Shown here: positions 4,108 through 29,559 of the stretch, one piece after another
Layout: each line of letters begins with the position of its first letter
How positions within the stretch are numbered: the stretch's first letter is position 1
Origin: a virus
Virus record (IMG/VR): IMGVR_UViG_3300032294_002010
Span: 1 to 29,826 of that record
Length of the DNA stretch: 29,826 bases
Direction: 5' to 3' (one strand)
The notes under the pieces: model-generated
Seen by the model: the letters and a program-made list of their open reading frames with translations, nothing else
The model's database searches: none
What the model was told of the DNA's origin: nothing
Made by a program: the position numbers and the translations under genes

Positions 4108-4115
4108 CTATTTAT
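4108..4115 (+). promoter_or_regulatory. TATTTAT motif, candidate phage promoter element (copy 3)
   Basis: CTATTTAT followed by ATAAAA lies in the 105-base gap before the tail tube gene, 40 nt upstream of its ATG. The rest of this gap is almost pure A/T with no hairpin or ORF that I can see. Confidence 0.42.
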
Positions 4116-4147: not shown

Positions 4148-4636
4148 ATGGCTGATTTATTAATGAAAATGCCCAGTACCTATGAACCAAAAAGAAAAAA
4201 TAGGTTTATAATGAGTTTTGACTCTTCTTTGGGTATTAACTCTTGGTATGTTGAAAGTGCTAGTAGACCAAAAATTACTATTGGATCAAAAGAAATAAAA
4301 TTCTTAAATACTGAAACATATGTTGCAGGTCAATTTAAATGGGATCCAATTACAGTTAAATTAAGAGATCCAATTGGTCCTTCAGCTTCACAAGCGGTAA
4401 TGGAATGGGTGAGATTACACGCAGAGTCAGTAACAGGTCGTATGGGTTATGCTGCTGGTTACAAGAAAAATGTTGATTTAGAAATGTTAGACCCAACCGG
4501 TGTTGCTGTTGAAAAATGGATTTTACAAGGTTGTCAAATTACAAGTGCAGGATTTGGTGACTTAGGGTATACTGGTGATGATTTAGCAATGATTGATTTA
4601 ACAATCCAACCGGATAGATGTATTTTAGTTTACTAA
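4148..4636 (+). CDS. 19: Tail tube protein (T4 gp19-like)
   Basis: A 162-aa protein, very close to the 163 residues of T4 gp19. It opens with the PKRKNRFIMSF strand, contains KWDPITVKLRDPIGPSAS (partner strand of the tube beta-barrel) and ends with the diagnostic segment WILQGCQITSAGFGDLGY...IDLTIQPDRCILVY. Gp19-type subunits stack as hexamers to form the inner tube through which DNA passes. The gene has its own upstream TATTTAT motif and a terminator 20 bases downstream, so it is likely an independently and strongly transcribed single gene, as fits a high-copy structural protein. The leader before the ATG has no Shine-Dalgarno sequence. Confidence 0.93.
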   Translation: MADLLMKMPSTYEPKRKNRFIMSFDSSLGINSWYVESASRPKITIGSKEIKFLNTETYVAGQFKWDPITVKLRDPIGPSASQAVMEWVRLHAESVTGRMGYAAGYKKNVDLEMLDPTGVAVEKWILQGCQITSAGFGDLGYTGDDLAMIDLTIQPDRCILVY

Positions 4637-4711: not shown

Positions 4712-4719
4712 TTATTTAT
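4712..4719 (+). promoter_or_regulatory. TATTTAT motif, candidate phage promoter element (copy 4)
   Basis: TTATTTAT followed by AAAATA begins 21 nt before the chaperone ATG and after the tail tube terminator. Spacing matches copies 2, 5, 6 and 7 (21-23 nt). Confidence 0.42.
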
Positions 4720-4732
4720 AAAATAGTATAAT

Positions 4733-5485
4733 ATGGAAAATGAAATAAAATACGGACAAGAAAATTTTAGTTTACCACACGATGTAATATCTTTACCATC
4801 TAAAGGAATTTTTTACAAAAATAAAAAATCGTCAATTAAAGTAGGGTATTTAACTGCAAGTGATGAAAACATTTTAATGTCTCCAAATGTGAGTAAAGAA
4901 GGTATTATATTTTCATTATTACGACAAAAAATATACGAACCCGGATTTAATATTAATGAAATGTTGGATTGCGATGTTCAGGCCGTTTTACTCTTTTTAA
5001 GAAATACGGCATTTGGTTCTGATTATAATTTTACAATATCAGATCCAGCTAACGGTAAAAGATTTGACGCTACTATTCTATTAGATGAAATAGACTATAT
5101 CCAACCTCAACATAACCCAGATGAAAATGGATTATTTACTTATAAATTACCTAAATCAAACGCCGAAGTTAAATTAAAATTATTAACTATTGGAGAACAA
5201 CAAGAGTTAGATAAATTAAATGAGTTATATCCTGTTGGTATGACTGCACCTGTTGTTACAAAAAAATTAGAAAAACAAATAGTTGAATTAAATGGTAATA
5301 CCGAAAAAAGTAAAATTGCACAATTTGTAAATCAAATGCCAATATCTGATTCTAAAAGTATTAGAAAATTTATTACAGAATGTGAACCAAAATTAAATTT
5401 AGAAAGAAAAGTTATGGCCCCGTCAGGAGAAGAAGTAAGTGTGAACATTACTTTTGGGGTAGAATTTTTTCGGCCTTTCTTCTGA
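4733..5485 (+). CDS. T4 gp26-like baseplate/tail assembly protein (PF12322-type), probable tail assembly chaperone
   Basis: A 250-aa protein with the features of the T4 baseplate protein family: an early LPSKGIFY (residues 21-28), YLTASDENILMS (39-50), an LLFLRNTAFGSDY segment (86-98), a YKLPKSNAEVKLKLLT block (137-152) and a terminal VEFFRPFF. The CxxC pair that I recall in some relatives at ~100-110 is absent. The gene lies directly between tail tube and tape measure, the classical position of tail assembly chaperones, which are made as short and frameshift-extended forms. A second frame overlaps its 3' end and carries a conserved-looking 50-residue extension. The gene may therefore act as the chaperone that holds the tape measure during tube assembly. 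Family assignment is firm; chaperone role is inferred from context. Confidence 0.8.
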   Translation: MENEIKYGQENFSLPHDVISLPSKGIFYKNKKSSIKVGYLTASDENILMSPNVSKEGIIFSLLRQKIYEPGFNINEMLDCDVQAVLLFLRNTAFGSDYNFTISDPANGKRFDATILLDEIDYIQPQHNPDENGLFTYKLPKSNAEVKLKLLTIGEQQELDKLNELYPVGMTAPVVTKKLEKQIVELNGNTEKSKIAQFVNQMPISDSKSIRKFITECEPKLNLERKVMAPSGEEVSVNITFGVEFFRPFF

Positions 5486-5624
5486 ACATAAAACAAATCA
5501 ATTAGACGAAATTTATTTTTTAGTTAAATACTGTAATTTTAGTTACGGAGATATAATCAATATGCCTGTTTATGAAAGAAAATACTTTATAAACAAATTC
5601 ACCAAAGAATTGGAAAAAAAATAA
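5463..5624 (+). CDS. Frameshift extension of the tail assembly chaperone (-T part)
   Basis: An open frame in the +1 register overlaps the end of the 4733 gene and runs to a TAA at 5622. It has no start codon before an ATG at 5562, which would give only 20 aa. The upstream part reads as real protein (NQLDEIYFLVKYC, FSYGDIINMPVYERKYFI, NKFTKELEKK) and resembles the short C-terminal partners that follow gp26-type genes in other myoviruses. Joined at the TTT TTT C site it would give a 296-aa product (246 + 50). The coordinates given are the open stretch after the upstream TAG at 5460, not a proven start. A non-frameshift alternative is reinitiation at 5562. Confidence 0.68.
   Translation, partial: NFFGLSSEHKTNQLDEIYFLVKYCNFSYGDIINMPVYERKYFINKFTKELEKK
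5465..5471 (+). promoter_or_regulatory. Candidate programmed +1 ribosomal frameshift site
   Basis: The zero-frame codons are GAA TTT TTT CGG. A tRNA-Phe on the second TTT (5468-5470) can re-pair one base forward on TTC, its better cognate, while the next zero-frame codon CGG is an infrequent arginine codon here (AGA dominates). The shift leads directly into GGC CTT TCT and the downstream extension. The overlap of the two frames is only 5463-5482, which confines any shift to this site. Confidence 0.6.
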
Positions 5625-23638: not shown

Positions 23639-23800
23639 ATGGGAAGAAAAAAAATTAATGACGAAGAAAAAAAAGTTAAGATAGGTATTTCAATAGATCC
23701 TGATTTGCCGCAATATTTTAAAGAAAGGTCAATAAATTTATCTTCCCTAGTTAATAAACTATTAAAAGAGTATATTAAAAATGGAGACAAAAGTTTGTAG
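23639..23800 (+). CDS. Small ribbon-helix-helix-like DNA-binding protein (53 aa)
   Basis: The sequence MGRKKINDEEKKVKIGISID followed by PDLPQYFKERSIN, LSSLVNKLLKEYIKNG fits a MetJ/Arc-type ribbon-helix-helix: one short basic strand (KVKIGISI, about residues 12-19), helix A (DLPQYFKERS) and helix B starting with the LSSLVNKLL turn. Such proteins bind operators as dimers. Its last 20 bases overlap the HNH gene in another frame, so the two are coupled and it may autoregulate the endonuclease cassette. It was found by reading the frame upstream of the HNH start; the length and clear fold pattern make it likely real. Confidence 0.68.
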   Translation: MGRKKINDEEKKVKIGISIDPDLPQYFKERSINLSSLVNKLLKEYIKNGDKSL

Positions 23801-24422
23801 TAAATGTGGTAAAGAAAAAGAATTTTCGGAGTTTAATAAACAAAAACTAGGTAAGTACGGGTTGAGGGGACATTGTAGGGAATGTCAAAGAGTTTGTACT
23901 AAAGAATATAAGTCCAAGAACAAAGAAAAAATTGCAGAATACAATAAAAAATGGAATCTTGAAAATAAAAAATATTATCAAGATTATAGAAAAATATGGG
24001 AAAAAGAAAATCCTGAAAAATTAGAATACAAAAAAGAAAACTTTAAAAAAAACAACCCACATTACTTTAATGAATATCGAAAAAAAAAACTTAAAACAGA
24101 TGTCTTATTTTATCTTAGATGTAAAATGAGAGATTCGGTTAATAGATACTTGAAATATCGGTCAAAAACTACGTTTGAAATTATTGGATGTCCTCCTAAA
24201 TTTTTAAAAGAACATTTAGAAAAACAATTCGTTAGTGGAATGACTTGGGAAAATAGAGGCAAATGGCATATTGATCACATCATTCCTTTATCTTCAGCAA
24301 AAACTGAGGAAGAGTTATACAAATTGTGTCATTACACAAATCTTCAACCATTATGGGCAGAGGATAATTTGAGAAAAAGTAACAAAATTGTAGAACAATT
24401 TAATAACAAAAAAAGTGATTAA
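23781..24422 (+). CDS. HNH homing endonuclease
   Basis: A 213-aa protein. N-terminal C6xxC9 and C32xxC35 form a zinc-binding knuckle (CSKCGKEKEFSEF...CRECQ), followed by a long Lys/Glu/Asn/Tyr-rich helical linker (40-105) likely to wrap DNA. The C-terminus is an HNH nuclease: KWHIDHIIPLSSAKT (H163, D165, H166), then HYTNLQPLWAEDNLRKSNKI (N187, N196, K199). Such free-standing phage enzymes cut an allele lacking them and spread by repair. It lies between the recombinase and the exonuclease gene; its start overlaps the ribbon-helix-helix gene and its last 8 bases overlap the exonuclease start. This tight junction suggests insertion exactly at the 5' end of the exonuclease gene. Confidence 0.88.
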   Translation: METKVCSKCGKEKEFSEFNKQKLGKYGLRGHCRECQRVCTKEYKSKNKEKIAEYNKKWNLENKKYYQDYRKIWEKENPEKLEYKKENFKKNNPHYFNEYRKKKLKTDVLFYLRCKMRDSVNRYLKYRSKTTFEIIGCPPKFLKEHLEKQFVSGMTWENRGKWHIDHIIPLSSAKTEEELYKLCHYTNLQPLWAEDNLRKSNKIVEQFNNKKSD

Positions 24423-25917: not shown

Positions 25918-28314
25918 ATGTCAGACAAAAAAAACTTCGGATACTTAGGAAATACTTTTCAAATTCAATTAATAAACAATATTATTACATACAAAGATTT
26001 CGCTAATTCTATCCTTGAAGTAATTGAACCTAACTATTTTGATAATCAATATTTTAAGATTATTTGTCAAATGATTAAAGAATATTACTCAAAATATGAG
26101 CATACTCCGACATTTGATACCTTAGAACAATTAACCAAGTCAGAAATAACATCTGCAATGGCTCAAAAGAGCATTTTAGATACGTTGATGCAAATTAAAA
26201 ATGTGTCTGACGAAGGGGCTATGTTTGTTCAAGAAAAAGCATTAAAATTTTGTAAACAGCAAGAGCTCCAAAAAGTAATGACTAAAGCACAATCAATCAT
26301 CGACAAAGGTGATTTTGAAAGTTATGATAAGTTGGAAGAAATGGTAAGGGGGGCACTACAAGTTGGTGAAGTTGATAAAGGAACAAGTGATGTATTTTTT
26401 AACCTTGATGAGGTTTTGGACGACGATTACAGACACCCAATTCCATTAGGTATACCTGGTATTGATAACCTTTTAAAAGGAGGATTAGCCAAAGGAGAAA
26501 TTGGTGTATTTTTAGCACCAACAGGTGTTGGTAAAGCACTACCTATCAGTGAGCCAGTACTTTGCCCAAATGGTTGGTTAAAAATTGGTCAGTTAAATGT
26601 TGGGGATTATGTAATAGGTTCAGATGGAAAAAAACAAATAGTTACTGGCGTATACCCACAAGGAGTAAGACCAATTTATAAAGTTGAATTTACAGATGAT
26701 ACTTTTGTGTATTGTGACGAAGAACATCTATGGAGTGTGAATACACTAAATATGAGAACTAAAAAAATAAGAAAAAAAGGTAAATCAATCTATTCCCCTG
26801 ACAATGGTTATATTACGGTTAAAACAATGGATATGATAAAAGATATCAAAAAAAGAAATCGTTATAATTATAGATTACCTAATGTTAGTCCGATACAATT
26901 TGAAAAAACACCAATTTCTATAGATCCTTATTTGTTAGGGTTGTTACTGGGTGATGGGAGTATATGTGAAAGTGGTATTAGAATTTCTACAGAAGACGAC
27001 CAAATTTTTAAAAATATTGAACATTTGAACGAACATACTTCATTTAGAACCTATAACTCTAAAGAGAATAAAATAACAAAACAGATTTTTTTAAAGAAAG
27101 AATTAATGTTAAGATTAAAAGAATACGGTTTGTTAAATAAAAAATCTAACAATAAGTTTATACCAAAAGACTTTTTGTATAATTCTTTAGAGAATCGAGT
27201 ATCCTTATTACAAGGTTTATTAGACACTGATGGTTTTGTTAGTAATAATTCAATAACACAATTTTATACTGTTTCTGAACAACTTTCAAAGGATGTTAAA
27301 GAATTGGTATTATCATTAGGAGGGACAATAAGAAAAAGTATAAAAAAACCAACTTATTTGTATAATAATGAACATAAAGAAGGTCAAAAATGTTATGTAT
27401 TAACAATTTCTTTCTGTAATGATATTATACCATTCAGATTGGATAGAAAAATAAATAGATATAAATCTAGAACTAAATATACAAATCAAAAATTTGTTAA
27501 AAGTATTGAGTATAGCCACAATGAAGAAGCGGTTTGTATTAAAGTATCTAATAAAGATGAATTATTTGTAACTAGAGATTATGTATTAACTCACAACACA
27601 ACCTTTACAACCAAAATTGCAAATCACGCATTTAACTTAGGGTATAACGTACTTCAAATATTTTTTGAAGACAACCCAAAAATTATTCAAAGAAAACACT
27701 TTACACTTTGGACTGGTATTCATCCTGATGATTTATCTGAAAATAAAGATGATGTAATGGCTAAAGTTAAACACATTCAGTCAACAAGAAAAAACAAGTT
27801 GATAATGAAAAAATTGGCTTCTGACACCGTATCTATGAATCAGATTAAAAATCAAGTAAGAAAGATGATTGCTGAAGGAACTAAAATCGATATGATTATT
27901 TTAGATTATATTGATTGTGTTGTTCCTGACAAAAGTTTAGGTGATGAATGGAAAAGCGAAGGATCGGTCATGAGAGGATTTGAAGCAATGTGTCACGAAT
28001 TGGACATTGCTGGGTGGACGGCCACACAAGGTAATAGGTGCGTCAAAACTGATACTTTAGTTGATATTGAAGGAAAAGGATTAATACAAATTAAAGATGT
28101 CGTCAAAGGAGATAAAATCCTAACACATTTAGGTTATAGAGATATTACATACATTTTTCCAATTCAAAAACAACCGGTTTATAAAATAAAAACCAAAAGT
28201 GGTAAAGAAATAAATGTTTCAGTAAAACATAAGTTTCCGGTAAAGGATAAAGGGTTCCTTTCAATACAAAGCGGTCTTAATGTTGGTGATAAACTTTTTA
28301 TTAAAAAAACTTGA
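25918..28314 (+). CDS. 41: Replicative helicase (T4 gp41/DnaB-like), N-terminal fragment containing a class 3-like intein and ending in a split-intein N-half
   Basis: A 798-aa precursor. Residues 1-~150 are the helical N-terminal domain of DnaB/gp41 helicases. The RecA-like core begins ~175 with PLGIPGIDNLLKGGLAKGEI and APTGVGK. An intein occupies 207-560, after the Walker A Lys. The core resumes at TTFTTKIANHAF (561), with LQIFFEDNPK, Walker B MIILDYIDCV (659-668, D663) and the motif ending ATQGNR (702-707). At C708 a second, split intein N-half starts (to T798), then a stop. The true N-extein is 353 aa (206 + 147). The missing helicase C-terminus is encoded from 29693 onward behind a C-intein. 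The mature enzyme would unwind DNA at the fork with primase; neither fragment alone can be active because the P-loop and the arginine-finger region must be restored by splicing. Confidence 0.9.
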   Translation: MSDKKNFGYLGNTFQIQLINNIITYKDFANSILEVIEPNYFDNQYFKIICQMIKEYYSKYEHTPTFDTLEQLTKSEITSAMAQKSILDTLMQIKNVSDEGAMFVQEKALKFCKQQELQKVMTKAQSIIDKGDFESYDKLEEMVRGALQVGEVDKGTSDVFFNLDEVLDDDYRHPIPLGIPGIDNLLKGGLAKGEIGVFLAPTGVGKALPISEPVLCPNGWLKIGQLNVGDYVIGSDGKKQIVTGVYPQGVRPIYKVEFTDDTFVYCDEEHLWSVNTLNMRTKKIRKKGKSIYSPDNGYITVKTMDMIKDIKKRNRYNYRLPNVSPIQFEKTPISIDPYLLGLLLGDGSICESGIRISTEDDQIFKNIEHLNEHTSFRTYNSKENKITKQIFLKKELMLRLKEYGLLNKKSNNKFIPKDFLYNSLENRVSLLQGLLDTDGFVSNNSITQFYTVSEQLSKDVKELVLSLGGTIRKSIKKPTYLYNNEHKEGQKCYVLTISFCNDIIPFRLDRKINRYKSRTKYTNQKFVKSIEYSHNEEAVCIKVSNKDELFVTRDYVLTHNTTFTTKIANHAFNLGYNVLQIFFEDNPKIIQRKHFTLWTGIHPDDLSENKDDVMAKVKHIQSTRKNKLIMKKLASDTVSMNQIKNQVRKMIAEGTKIDMIILDYIDCVVPDKSLGDEWKSEGSVMRGFEAMCHELDIAGWTATQGNRCVKTDTLVDIEGKGLIQIKDVVKGDKILTHLGYRDITYIFPIQKQPVYKIKTKSGKEINVSVKHKFPVKDKGFLSIQSGLNVGDKLFIKKT
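26536..27597 (+). mobile_element. Contiguous intein with LAGLIDADG endonuclease in helicase Walker A (class 3-like)
   Basis: The insertion spans A207 to N560 of the ORF (354 aa) between GVGK and TT. It begins ALPISEPVLCPNGW, so residue 1 is Ala rather than Cys or Ser. Block B reads FVYCDEEHLW, with Trp two residues after the His (W66 of the intein). Block F reads EEAVCIKVSN (C334) and the end is YVLTHN (T352, H353, N354), with Thr as +1 residue. Ala1 plus this Trp/Cys/Thr triplet is the signature of class 3 inteins, which form a branched intermediate on the block F Cys. The endonuclease has both LAGLIDADG-type helices: LLGLLLGDGSI (ORF 339-349) and LLQGLLDTDGF (430-440), each with its acidic residue intact, so homing activity is plausible. 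Confidence 0.87.
28039..28311 (+). mobile_element. Split intein, N-terminal half (91 aa)
   Basis: It starts at C708 after extein residues QGNR: CVKTDTLVDIEGKGLIQIKD, then VVKGDKILTHLGYRDITYIF, PIQKQPVYKIKTKSGKEIN and VSVKHKFPVKDKGFLSIQSG, ending LNVGDKLFIKKT before the stop. Blocks A and B are complete, including the block B His (HKFP). It closely resembles, from memory, the gp41-8 split intein N-half (KQPVF...LKSGKKI...HKFPTKDG...SGLKVGD). No blocks F or G are present; they lie at 29564. Confidence 0.9.
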
Positions 28315-28343
28315 GTCGCTGACTAACTTTTCAATTTAACACG

Positions 28344-28351
28344 ATATTTAT
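28344..28351 (+). promoter_or_regulatory. TATTTAT motif, candidate phage promoter element (copy 10)
   Basis: ATATTTAT followed by TATATA begins 13 nt before the ATG at 28357, in the 42-base gap between the split-intein stop and the endonuclease. It could let the endonuclease and the C-intein ORF be transcribed separately from the N-part. Confidence 0.4.
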
Positions 28352-28356
28352 TATAT

Positions 28357-29559
28357 ATGGGAATGTTAACAATTGAAAAGTTTTTGAACTATAAAAAAAT
28401 TAAAGATATAACACATTTGATAACTGAAAAACAATTTTTTGAAATTGAAAAGTTGTTTATATTTTATAACACGGAAACAATAAAAAATAGATTAACAAAT
28501 ATTAGACATTTTATTTTGAATAAGGTTGATGAAAAATGGTTAGGAAGGTTATATATAATAAAAAACAGATTAAAAAACGATGTTTTAAGTGAATATTCTT
28601 GTAAAGTTAGATACGGAAATAATTGGGAAATCAAACAAAATGAAATAAAAGAAAAGGTTAAAATGGATAAAGAAAAATTTATTAGTCTTTATGGTTTAAC
28701 TGAAGGTATTAAAAGATGGAAAGAAAGGAACGAAAAAACTATATCATATGGATTAGATCCTGCAGTTAAAAGATATGGTGAAGTTGAAGGTAAGAAAAGA
28801 TGGGAGTTAACTTTGAAAAAAAAGATTAACACTATGAGTGAACGAAAAAAAATTAAACCATATAGAAATGGTAGAACTTTGTCCGAACATCAAGAAAGAT
28901 ATGGACTTTATGAAGGTTATAATATATGGAAAAAAAAGAATGACAAAGTAAGTTATCGATTTAGTAAACAATATTATATTGATACATACGGTGATATGGG
29001 TAAAGAAATGTGGGAAAAATATTGTTTAAATATGGTAAAAACAACAAAAAATTCTTTTATTGAAAGATATGGAAAAGAAGAGGGAATCCGTAGGTATGAT
29101 TTATTTATTAATCAAATAAAATTTAAAAGTTCTAAAGAATATTATATATCAAAATGGGGTCAAATAGAAGGTTTAGTTAAATATCAAGAATTAATAAATA
29201 AAAAAATTAATAACTTTATTGAAAAATATTCAAAAATATCCCAAAAACTTTTTTGGTCTTTATATGAAAAAATAGATGATTGTGGCAAATGTTATTTTTA
29301 TGAATTAAATAATGAATATACTTTTTATGTTTGGAAAGATGATTTAAAGATTATCAATGTTGATTTTAAAATGGGAAATAAAATAATTGAATTTGATGGT
29401 GATTATTGGCATTCAAATGAACAACAAAAAATAATTGACAAAAAAAGAGATCAATATTTATGTAGTAAGGGGTATAAAGTTTTAAGAGTAAAAGAATCAG
29501 ATTTTAGAAAAAATAGTGGAGAAGTTATTGAAAAATGTTTAAATTTTATAAAAAGTTAA
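28357..29559 (+). CDS. Free-standing Vsr-like homing endonuclease inserted between split-intein halves
   Basis: A 400-aa protein. Residues 1-100 are helical and basic. Residues 108-276 hold six copies of a motif close to RYGxxEGxxRW, probably DNA-contacting modules. The C-terminal ~75 residues form a Vsr-like nuclease: INVDFKMGNKIIEFDGDYWH (D336, E345, D347, D349, H352), then IIDKKRDQYLCSKGYKVLRV (D361, R364, D365) and KESDF before a final helix. This agrees with the endonuclease family described together with fractured split-intein genes in marine metagenomes (Dassa and colleagues, 2009). It would cut helicase alleles lacking the insertion and so carry itself and the split site. Its stop lies 4 bases before the C-intein start. 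Confidence 0.85.
   Translation: MGMLTIEKFLNYKKIKDITHLITEKQFFEIEKLFIFYNTETIKNRLTNIRHFILNKVDEKWLGRLYIIKNRLKNDVLSEYSCKVRYGNNWEIKQNEIKEKVKMDKEKFISLYGLTEGIKRWKERNEKTISYGLDPAVKRYGEVEGKKRWELTLKKKINTMSERKKIKPYRNGRTLSEHQERYGLYEGYNIWKKKNDKVSYRFSKQYYIDTYGDMGKEMWEKYCLNMVKTTKNSFIERYGKEEGIRRYDLFINQIKFKSSKEYYISKWGQIEGLVKYQELINKKINNFIEKYSKISQKLFWSLYEKIDDCGKCYFYELNNEYTFYVWKDDLKIINVDFKMGNKIIEFDGDYWHSNEQQKIIDKKRDQYLCSKGYKVLRVKESDFRKNSGEVIEKCLNFIKS
28678..29184 (+). repeat. Six RYGxxEGxxRW coding repeats in the endonuclease
   Basis: Copies centre on SLYGLTEGIKRW (residues 110-121), KRYGEVEGKKRW (138-149), ERYGLYEGYNIW (180-191), DTYGDMGKEMWE (209-220, shifted), ERYGKEEGIRRY (236-247) and SKWGQIEGLVKY (265-276). 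Spacing is about 27-42 residues. The pattern is a Tyr/Trp-Gly turn followed by a short helix. Confidence 0.8.

Follow-up and report, generated by a model that had tools for sequence, protein, structure and literature searches.

The window analysed here, the whole stretch of 29,826 nucleotides of the viral record IMGVR_UViG_3300032294_002010, carries a gp26-like gene between a tail tube gene and a putative tape measure gene (Table 1). The gp26-like ORF scored 29.8 bits against PF12322 (T4_baseplate, gp26/gp51), above the curated Pfam cut-off of 24.5, and matched phrog_150 ('baseplate hub') with an E-value of 1.1e-15. For the 637-aa ORF downstream of it, Pfam and PHROG gave no match over cut-off; the gene at the equivalent place in Flavobacterium phage immuto is annotated as tail tape measure. 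The placement between tube and tape measure that a first-pass annotation of this DNA had described is therefore upheld, for the tube by its profile match and for the tape measure by position and the immuto annotation, and it is the placement of chaperone genes of the G/GT kind.

The end of the gp26-like gene (5459-5485) reads GTA GAA TTT TTT CGG CCT TTC TTC TGA in frame 0. The +1 frame is open from 5463, and its extension comprises 52 codons from 5466, followed by a TAA at 5622-5624, with the translation FFGLSSEHKTNQLDEIYFLVKYCNFSYGDIINMPVYERKYFINKFTKELEKK. The first-pass annotation had put the extension at 50 residues, which holds for the part past the Phe-Phe common to both frames (~50 codons) and not for the total. 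Its statement that this frame opens without a proper start was borne out: the first ATG, GTG or TTG is an internal ATG 32 codons in, within ...NMPVYERKY, and because a TAG closes the +1 frame just upstream, no start codon is usable before the slip site in the window. A 3' extension that lies in a different frame and has no start of its own is a further trait of the G/GT kind.

Table 1 Coordinates of the features at the chaperone locus (positions in the window)
Feature	Position	Strand	Evidence or remark
Tail tube protein, 5' of the chaperone gene	4148..4636	+	phrog_4542 tail tube, E 1.3e-30
gp26-like gene, short chaperone form (TAC-N), 250 aa	4733..5485	+	TGA 5483-5485; PF12322 E 6.2e-7, phrog_150
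Predicted helix P1, 5' strand (CCCCG)	5418..5422	+	95.4% of P1 cells paired
Predicted helix P2, 5' strand	5434..5439	+	five of six P2 pairs with changes on both sides
Predicted helix P2, 3' strand	5447..5452	+	covariation, tree co-changes
Predicted helix P1, 3' strand (TGGGG)	5455..5459	+	ends 5 nt before first Phe codon
TAG in +1 frame	5460..5462	+	sequence, start-codon survey; excludes initiation upstream of slip site
Slippery site TTT TTT C	5465..5471	+	P-site TTT would re-pair to TTC (+1); TTTTTTCG invariant in 114 relatives
+1-frame extension, gp51-C-like domain of long form	5466..5624	+	translation; variability phase switch
CGG codon, presumed slow A-site codon	5471..5473	+	CGN 60/60 vs 10% background
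Putative tape measure protein, 637 aa	5654..7567	+	position only

The sequence TATTTATA, which is the T4 late promoter TATAAATA read on the opposite strand, occurs at 4713, 5632, 7583 and 20416 and also at 4109, that is, ~20 nt 5' of the start codons at 4733, 5654, 7604 and 20436 and 39 nt 5' of that at 4148. TATTTAT 3' of the extension is also kept in relatives. All 19 listed start codons lack a Shine-Dalgarno sequence, and the upstream stretches are A/T-rich, as in Bacteroidota.

The overlap of the two frames is conserved. A first scan yielded seven relatives of 58-74% identity, all with the same overlap, and a next scan 80 relatives, all of which keep it (three of the contigs end too early for the extension to be seen). 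It recurs in 49 further non-redundant loci and likewise in ~50 loci selected for the absence of a GGGG upstream, and every complete relative goes on in the +1 frame. Along the alignment, the peak of variability passes from the third position of frame 0 to the third position of the +1 frame exactly at the site, which implies that both frames are under coding constraint. The overlap architecture is real and far beyond chance. A run of six T is a typical spot for a one-base length error, and the break could accordingly be put down to sequencing or assembly, or to decay of the gene. However, it falls at the identical base in more than 100 non-redundant contigs, drawn from numerous samples, as well as in the isolate genomes Mel-JY01, immuto and GXN1, with coding constraint on both sides; this conservation refutes error or decay, to which we assign virtually no probability.

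The extension might instead be a separate small gp51-like gene, read without any frameshift from its own start or by re-initiation at the gp26 stop. Many related records do annotate a separate small ORF, some with an ATG overlapping or just past the gp26 stop, and in the -1 clade described below an ATG stands at codon 5 in 43 of 74 genes. Against this, none of the starts is conserved among the more than 100 divergent relatives in the window's clade, yet the new frame keeps its residues from FF-x-L-S-S at the slip site onward, the slippery sequence does not vary although codon usage would lead one to expect it, and the window itself offers its first in-frame start only deep within the extension, the TAG blocking earlier ones. 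In 29 of 58 relatives, an ATG precedes the slip site in the +1 frame, and internal initiation may be possible in these. As a general account, a separate gene seems to us very unlikely. The first-pass annotation had looked for support to conservation of the T-run plus C and of the extension's frame, and for contradiction to homologs whose downstream frame forms a gene by itself, starting at a conserved ATG and lacking a slippery site; the former is what more than 100 divergent relatives display, and the latter did not turn up in this clade.

The slip site shows constraint of its own. All 114 non-redundant window-type relatives have TTTTTTCG at this position and encode the downstream protein in the +1 frame, so that a conserved slippery sequence lies within the overlap, as in genes of the G/GT kind. 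The site reads TTT TTT CGN in 60 of 60 non-redundant genes, in which background usage for Arg is 90% AGR and 10% CGN, and for Phe 87% TTT. CGG is rare in the window (4 among 9,417 codons, 0.42 per 1000). Elsewhere, TTT before C is avoided (Fisher p 0.001 in the window and p 0.009 in the clade's gp26), as expected if TTT-C is shift-prone. Part of the invariance of the downstream codons (CCT, TTC) follows from two-frame coding, whereas the upstream invariance does not. These observations agree with the earlier proposal of a +1 frameshift at TTT TTT CGG, in which tRNA-Phe would slip from TTT to TTC while the infrequent CGG codon occupies the A site.

A -2 shift at the T run, or slippage of RNA polymerase, would lead into the same frame, the -2 shift adding one residue, and the TTTTTT homopolymer is suited to either. 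Other +1 relatives that lack the six-T run, however, keep a TTT followed by C or T, as in TTT CTT TGG (16 of 71 immuto-type genes), TTC TTT CGT (GXN1) and TTT CTA (LR756508). A -2 move does not re-pair at those sites, whereas a move from TTT to TTC or TTT does, and we regard -2 or polymerase slippage as quite improbable. All +1 members of the clade have just one element in common, namely the proposed slip of tRNA-Phe (TTT to TTC) with CGN as the A-site codon. Taken together, the sequence data suggest that one gene very probably yields two tail assembly chaperones through a programmed +1 frameshift.

Conserved sequence also precedes the site. When alignment columns were ranked by their departure from codon usage, constraint appeared at -47 to -37 (CCCC[AG]TCNGGA) and at -9 to -6 (GGGG), negative positions being counted from the first Phe codon. 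In the divergent locus L330, GTCC and GGAC take their places, which makes a double compensatory change. All viral contigs were searched for genes without the GGG or without the next G; many of the GGGG-less genes have a matching upstream change, such as CACC/GGTG, and some do not. In a gap-free alignment of 114 non-redundant sequences, the four strongest covarying pairs out of 2,211 column pairs were -46:-7, -31:-13, -28:-16 and -26:-18. The predicted RNA stem-loop spans 5418-5459, ending 5 nt 5' of the first TTT, and consists of helix P1 (-47 to -43 with -10 to -6) and a nested helix P2 (-31 to -26 with -18 to -13).

When this structure was imposed on the alignment, 86% of cells were paired, compared to 44-52% in slid versions, and 124 cells were doubly changed versus 51 when shuffled, a number reached by none of 500 shuffles. 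The pair -46:-7 is CG in 95 of the 114 sequences, AU in eight, UA in two, GU in two and UG in one, and is broken in six. P2 is imperfect, with 78% of cells paired and the innermost pair mismatched in the window. On the protein tree, the pairs with most pairing-preserving co-changes were -28:-16, -31:-13 and -25:-19, the top three of 2,211 and all in the P2 register (P2 co-changes holding ranks 1 and 2), and -46:-7 showed four co-changes versus 0.25 expected. Protein-level coupling cannot account for -46:-7, -31:-13, -28:-16 and -25:-19 because all of them join third codon positions, and base-composition drift is an unlikely cause because it would favour no single register. The existence of a conserved 5' stem-loop is thus supported by compensatory changes.

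Rfam gave nothing above gathering score at the site. Neither the -1 clade nor the immuto clade revealed comparable 5' stem-loop covariation; a model of the stem-loop weakly matched three immuto-type loci (E ~1e-4), largely via the common T-run. Two other candidate pairings were discarded: a downstream stimulatory hairpin around the site, seen in the first consensus fold, has pairs that hardly vary, and dual coding explains the downstream codons; a GGAGAA:UUCUUC pairing is lost in divergent members. Among immuto-type genes (L201-L280), 45 of 71 have a GGAGG ~25-35 nt 5' of the slip site, 27 of them at -31, which often uses GAG Glu codons despite a preference for GAA.

The GGGG could also be viewed not as a hairpin strand but as a Shine-Dalgarno-like stimulator of the prfB type: it is invariant at the GGG codon in 60 of 60 non-redundant genes, and RF2 has AGGGGG before its own +1 site. 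However, it lies 5-8 nt from the slip codon (ending 5 or 8 nt before it), compared to 3 nt in prfB (PMC5009743). Moreover, genes with GGTG or GGAC alter the upstream strand to match, which anti-Shine-Dalgarno pairing does not predict, and no Shine-Dalgarno sequence occurs at any of the window's listed starts, which fits a stimulator independent of such pairing. An internal Shine-Dalgarno role of the GGGG is thus disfavoured by its covariation with the upstream strand, and we judge it unlikely.

To place the window-type gene, we compared it with other T4-like chaperone genes. In the immuto/Mel-JY01 clade, the extension is likewise in +1, the site being TTT [TC]TT T.. in 71 of 71 genes. In the cyanophage-type clade, the extension is in -1, with an invariant T_TTT_TTC in 75 of 75 non-redundant genes. 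At the Kyanoviridae gp26 loci of this type (L010, L121-L200, L098-L109), where T_TTT_TTC is invariant, the extension is annotated as a separate gp51 or as a hypothetical protein. Profile comparison of the fused proteins related the window type to the immuto type at 99.9% and, along the whole fused protein, to the cyanophage type at 92%, and the cyanophage type matched T4 gp51 at 97.8% from end to end, extension included. The window extension alone gave no significant direct profile match to the C-terminus of T4 gp51, so that its link to gp51 is transitive through the cyanophage clade.

Phage T4 itself carries the pair differently. Its gp26 (TAC-N) and gp51 (TAC-NC) both belong to PF12322 and share the core with the window protein, and the extension, the same one by transitive profile comparison, is on gp51 only. 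Short and long forms are thus two paralogous genes in T4, one gene with a +1 site in the window and one with T_TTT_TTC (-1) in the cyanophage type. T4 has two copies; there is a single one in Mel-JY01, in immuto and in P-SSM2. A single copy, with no separate short and long paralogues, was likewise seen in each of six window-type contigs (115-281 kb, possibly incomplete). In IMGVR_UViG_2974754850, the T4-type gp51 match (L119:1201-1946) is 746 bases long, not a multiple of three, which suggests a frame break or an error.

A fused-protein model reached a pLDDT of 81.7, with the extension predicted to form helices that follow the core. Foldseek by itself matched this model to nothing in the PDB at an E-value of 0.001. 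After realignment of 988 chains, the HK97 tail assembly chaperone 2OB9 was the sole one with a Z-score of at least 5, a weak match (Z 5.0 over 78 residues, where unrelated models often give 7-8), and the likeness of the model to 2OB9 is suggestive only.

Parts of this picture are already known. Vladimirov, Gautam and Davidson (2022), as cited in later papers, identified gp26/gp51 as tail assembly chaperones; the link between PF12322 proteins and G/GT chaperones drawn in the first-pass annotation therefore stands, and its novelty does not. The Adele paper reports poly-T -1 signals in TAC-N genes of T4-like phages, and according to the PRFect paper some T4-like phages have, in place of a frameshift, a short gene and a fused long one. 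The literature searched contained neither the +1 variant nor its stem-loop; what seems to be new is the +1 direction, the UUU_UUU_C site next to a rare CGN codon, and the stem-loop 5' of it.

The window gene resembles lambda gpG/gpGT in its place between tube and putative tape measure and in its short form and predicted frameshifted long form. Lambda shifts by -1, whereas the window has a predicted +1 shift at UUU_UUU_C and a 5' stem-loop, and no sequence homology to gpG was shown. Xu, Hendrix and Duda are said to have described a conserved -1 frameshift in tail assembly chaperones in 2004.

In Listeria phage PSA (CCC_UGA, CCC_UCC) and prfB (CUU_UGA), too, a +1 shift arises by slippage in the P site while a slow codon occupies the A site; the window differs from both in having a Phe codon as the slip codon, with the rare sense codon CGN in the A site, and its site is associated with 5' intra-mRNA pairing in place of a Shine-Dalgarno sequence or 3' pseudoknot (PMC5009743). 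In T4 gene 60, ~5 bp of a 5' stem-loop are modelled as already paired, and the outer 4 bp are proposed to close only later, pulling the mRNA forward (PMC5009743). A SARS coronavirus hairpin 4 nt 5' of its site stimulates +1 shifting in synthetic constructs. As in these two systems, the conserved stem-loop of the window is immediately 5' of the recoding site, and by analogy it resembles the gene 60 "motor" hairpin; unlike them, the window would be a natural single-base +1 case in a tail chaperone gene, with a predicted stem-loop function.

From the sequence pattern we infer a ribosomal slip at this place, its position at UUU to UUC and its stimulation by the stem-loop. Most ribosomes would end at the 250-aa short form (TAC-N, gp26-like), and a fraction would shift +1 at TTT TTT C GG to produce a 296-aa long form (TAC-NC, T4 gp51-like), the peptidyl-tRNA-Phe moving from UUU to UUC during the delay at the rare CGN codon in the A site. 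With the slip codon in the P site, the inner helix P2 would form immediately beyond the mRNA exit channel. The P1 strand on the 3' side, 5-8 nt upstream, would still be inside the ribosome, and P1 could be completed only if the mRNA were pulled 5', that is, if the ribosome moved forward; a motor model thus needs partial unpairing. During tail assembly, the short form may load the tape measure protein and the extension may load tube subunits.

The broadest reading is that, in a widespread clade of uncultured phages related to T4, a 5' stem-loop zipping behind the ribosome drives a natural +1 shift as a conserved relative in mechanism of the gene 60 motor hairpin, that the chaperone family has swapped between -1 and +1, and that duplication replaced the shift in T4; we give it an even chance. 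The probable frameshift in the window would unify how tail chaperones are produced in the T4 superfamily, in which a -1 shift (cyanophage type), a +1 shift (this and the immuto/Mel-JY01 clade) and two genes (T4) would make the same protein pair. The locus offers a compact and heavily conserved natural case that links a 5' stem-loop to probable +1 frameshifting, and makes it directly testable whether a forward shift can be driven by RNA that folds behind the ribosome. It also bears on annotation, as the extension stands as a 'hypothetical protein' or an unannotated stretch in many T4-like genomes.

Elsewhere in the window, at 25918-29559, a replicative-helicase-like ORF is apparently broken at Walker A (GVGK/TTF) by an intein-like insert. 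A second apparent break lies close to its end: an intein-like start there reads into a stop, and a separate endonuclease-like ORF (28357-29559) comes next. We take this arrangement to resemble the split-intein 'fractured gene' of phage gp41 helicases. By eye, the ORFs at 1373-2896, just after the sheath gene, and at 23781-24422, between replication genes, look like free-standing homing endonucleases.
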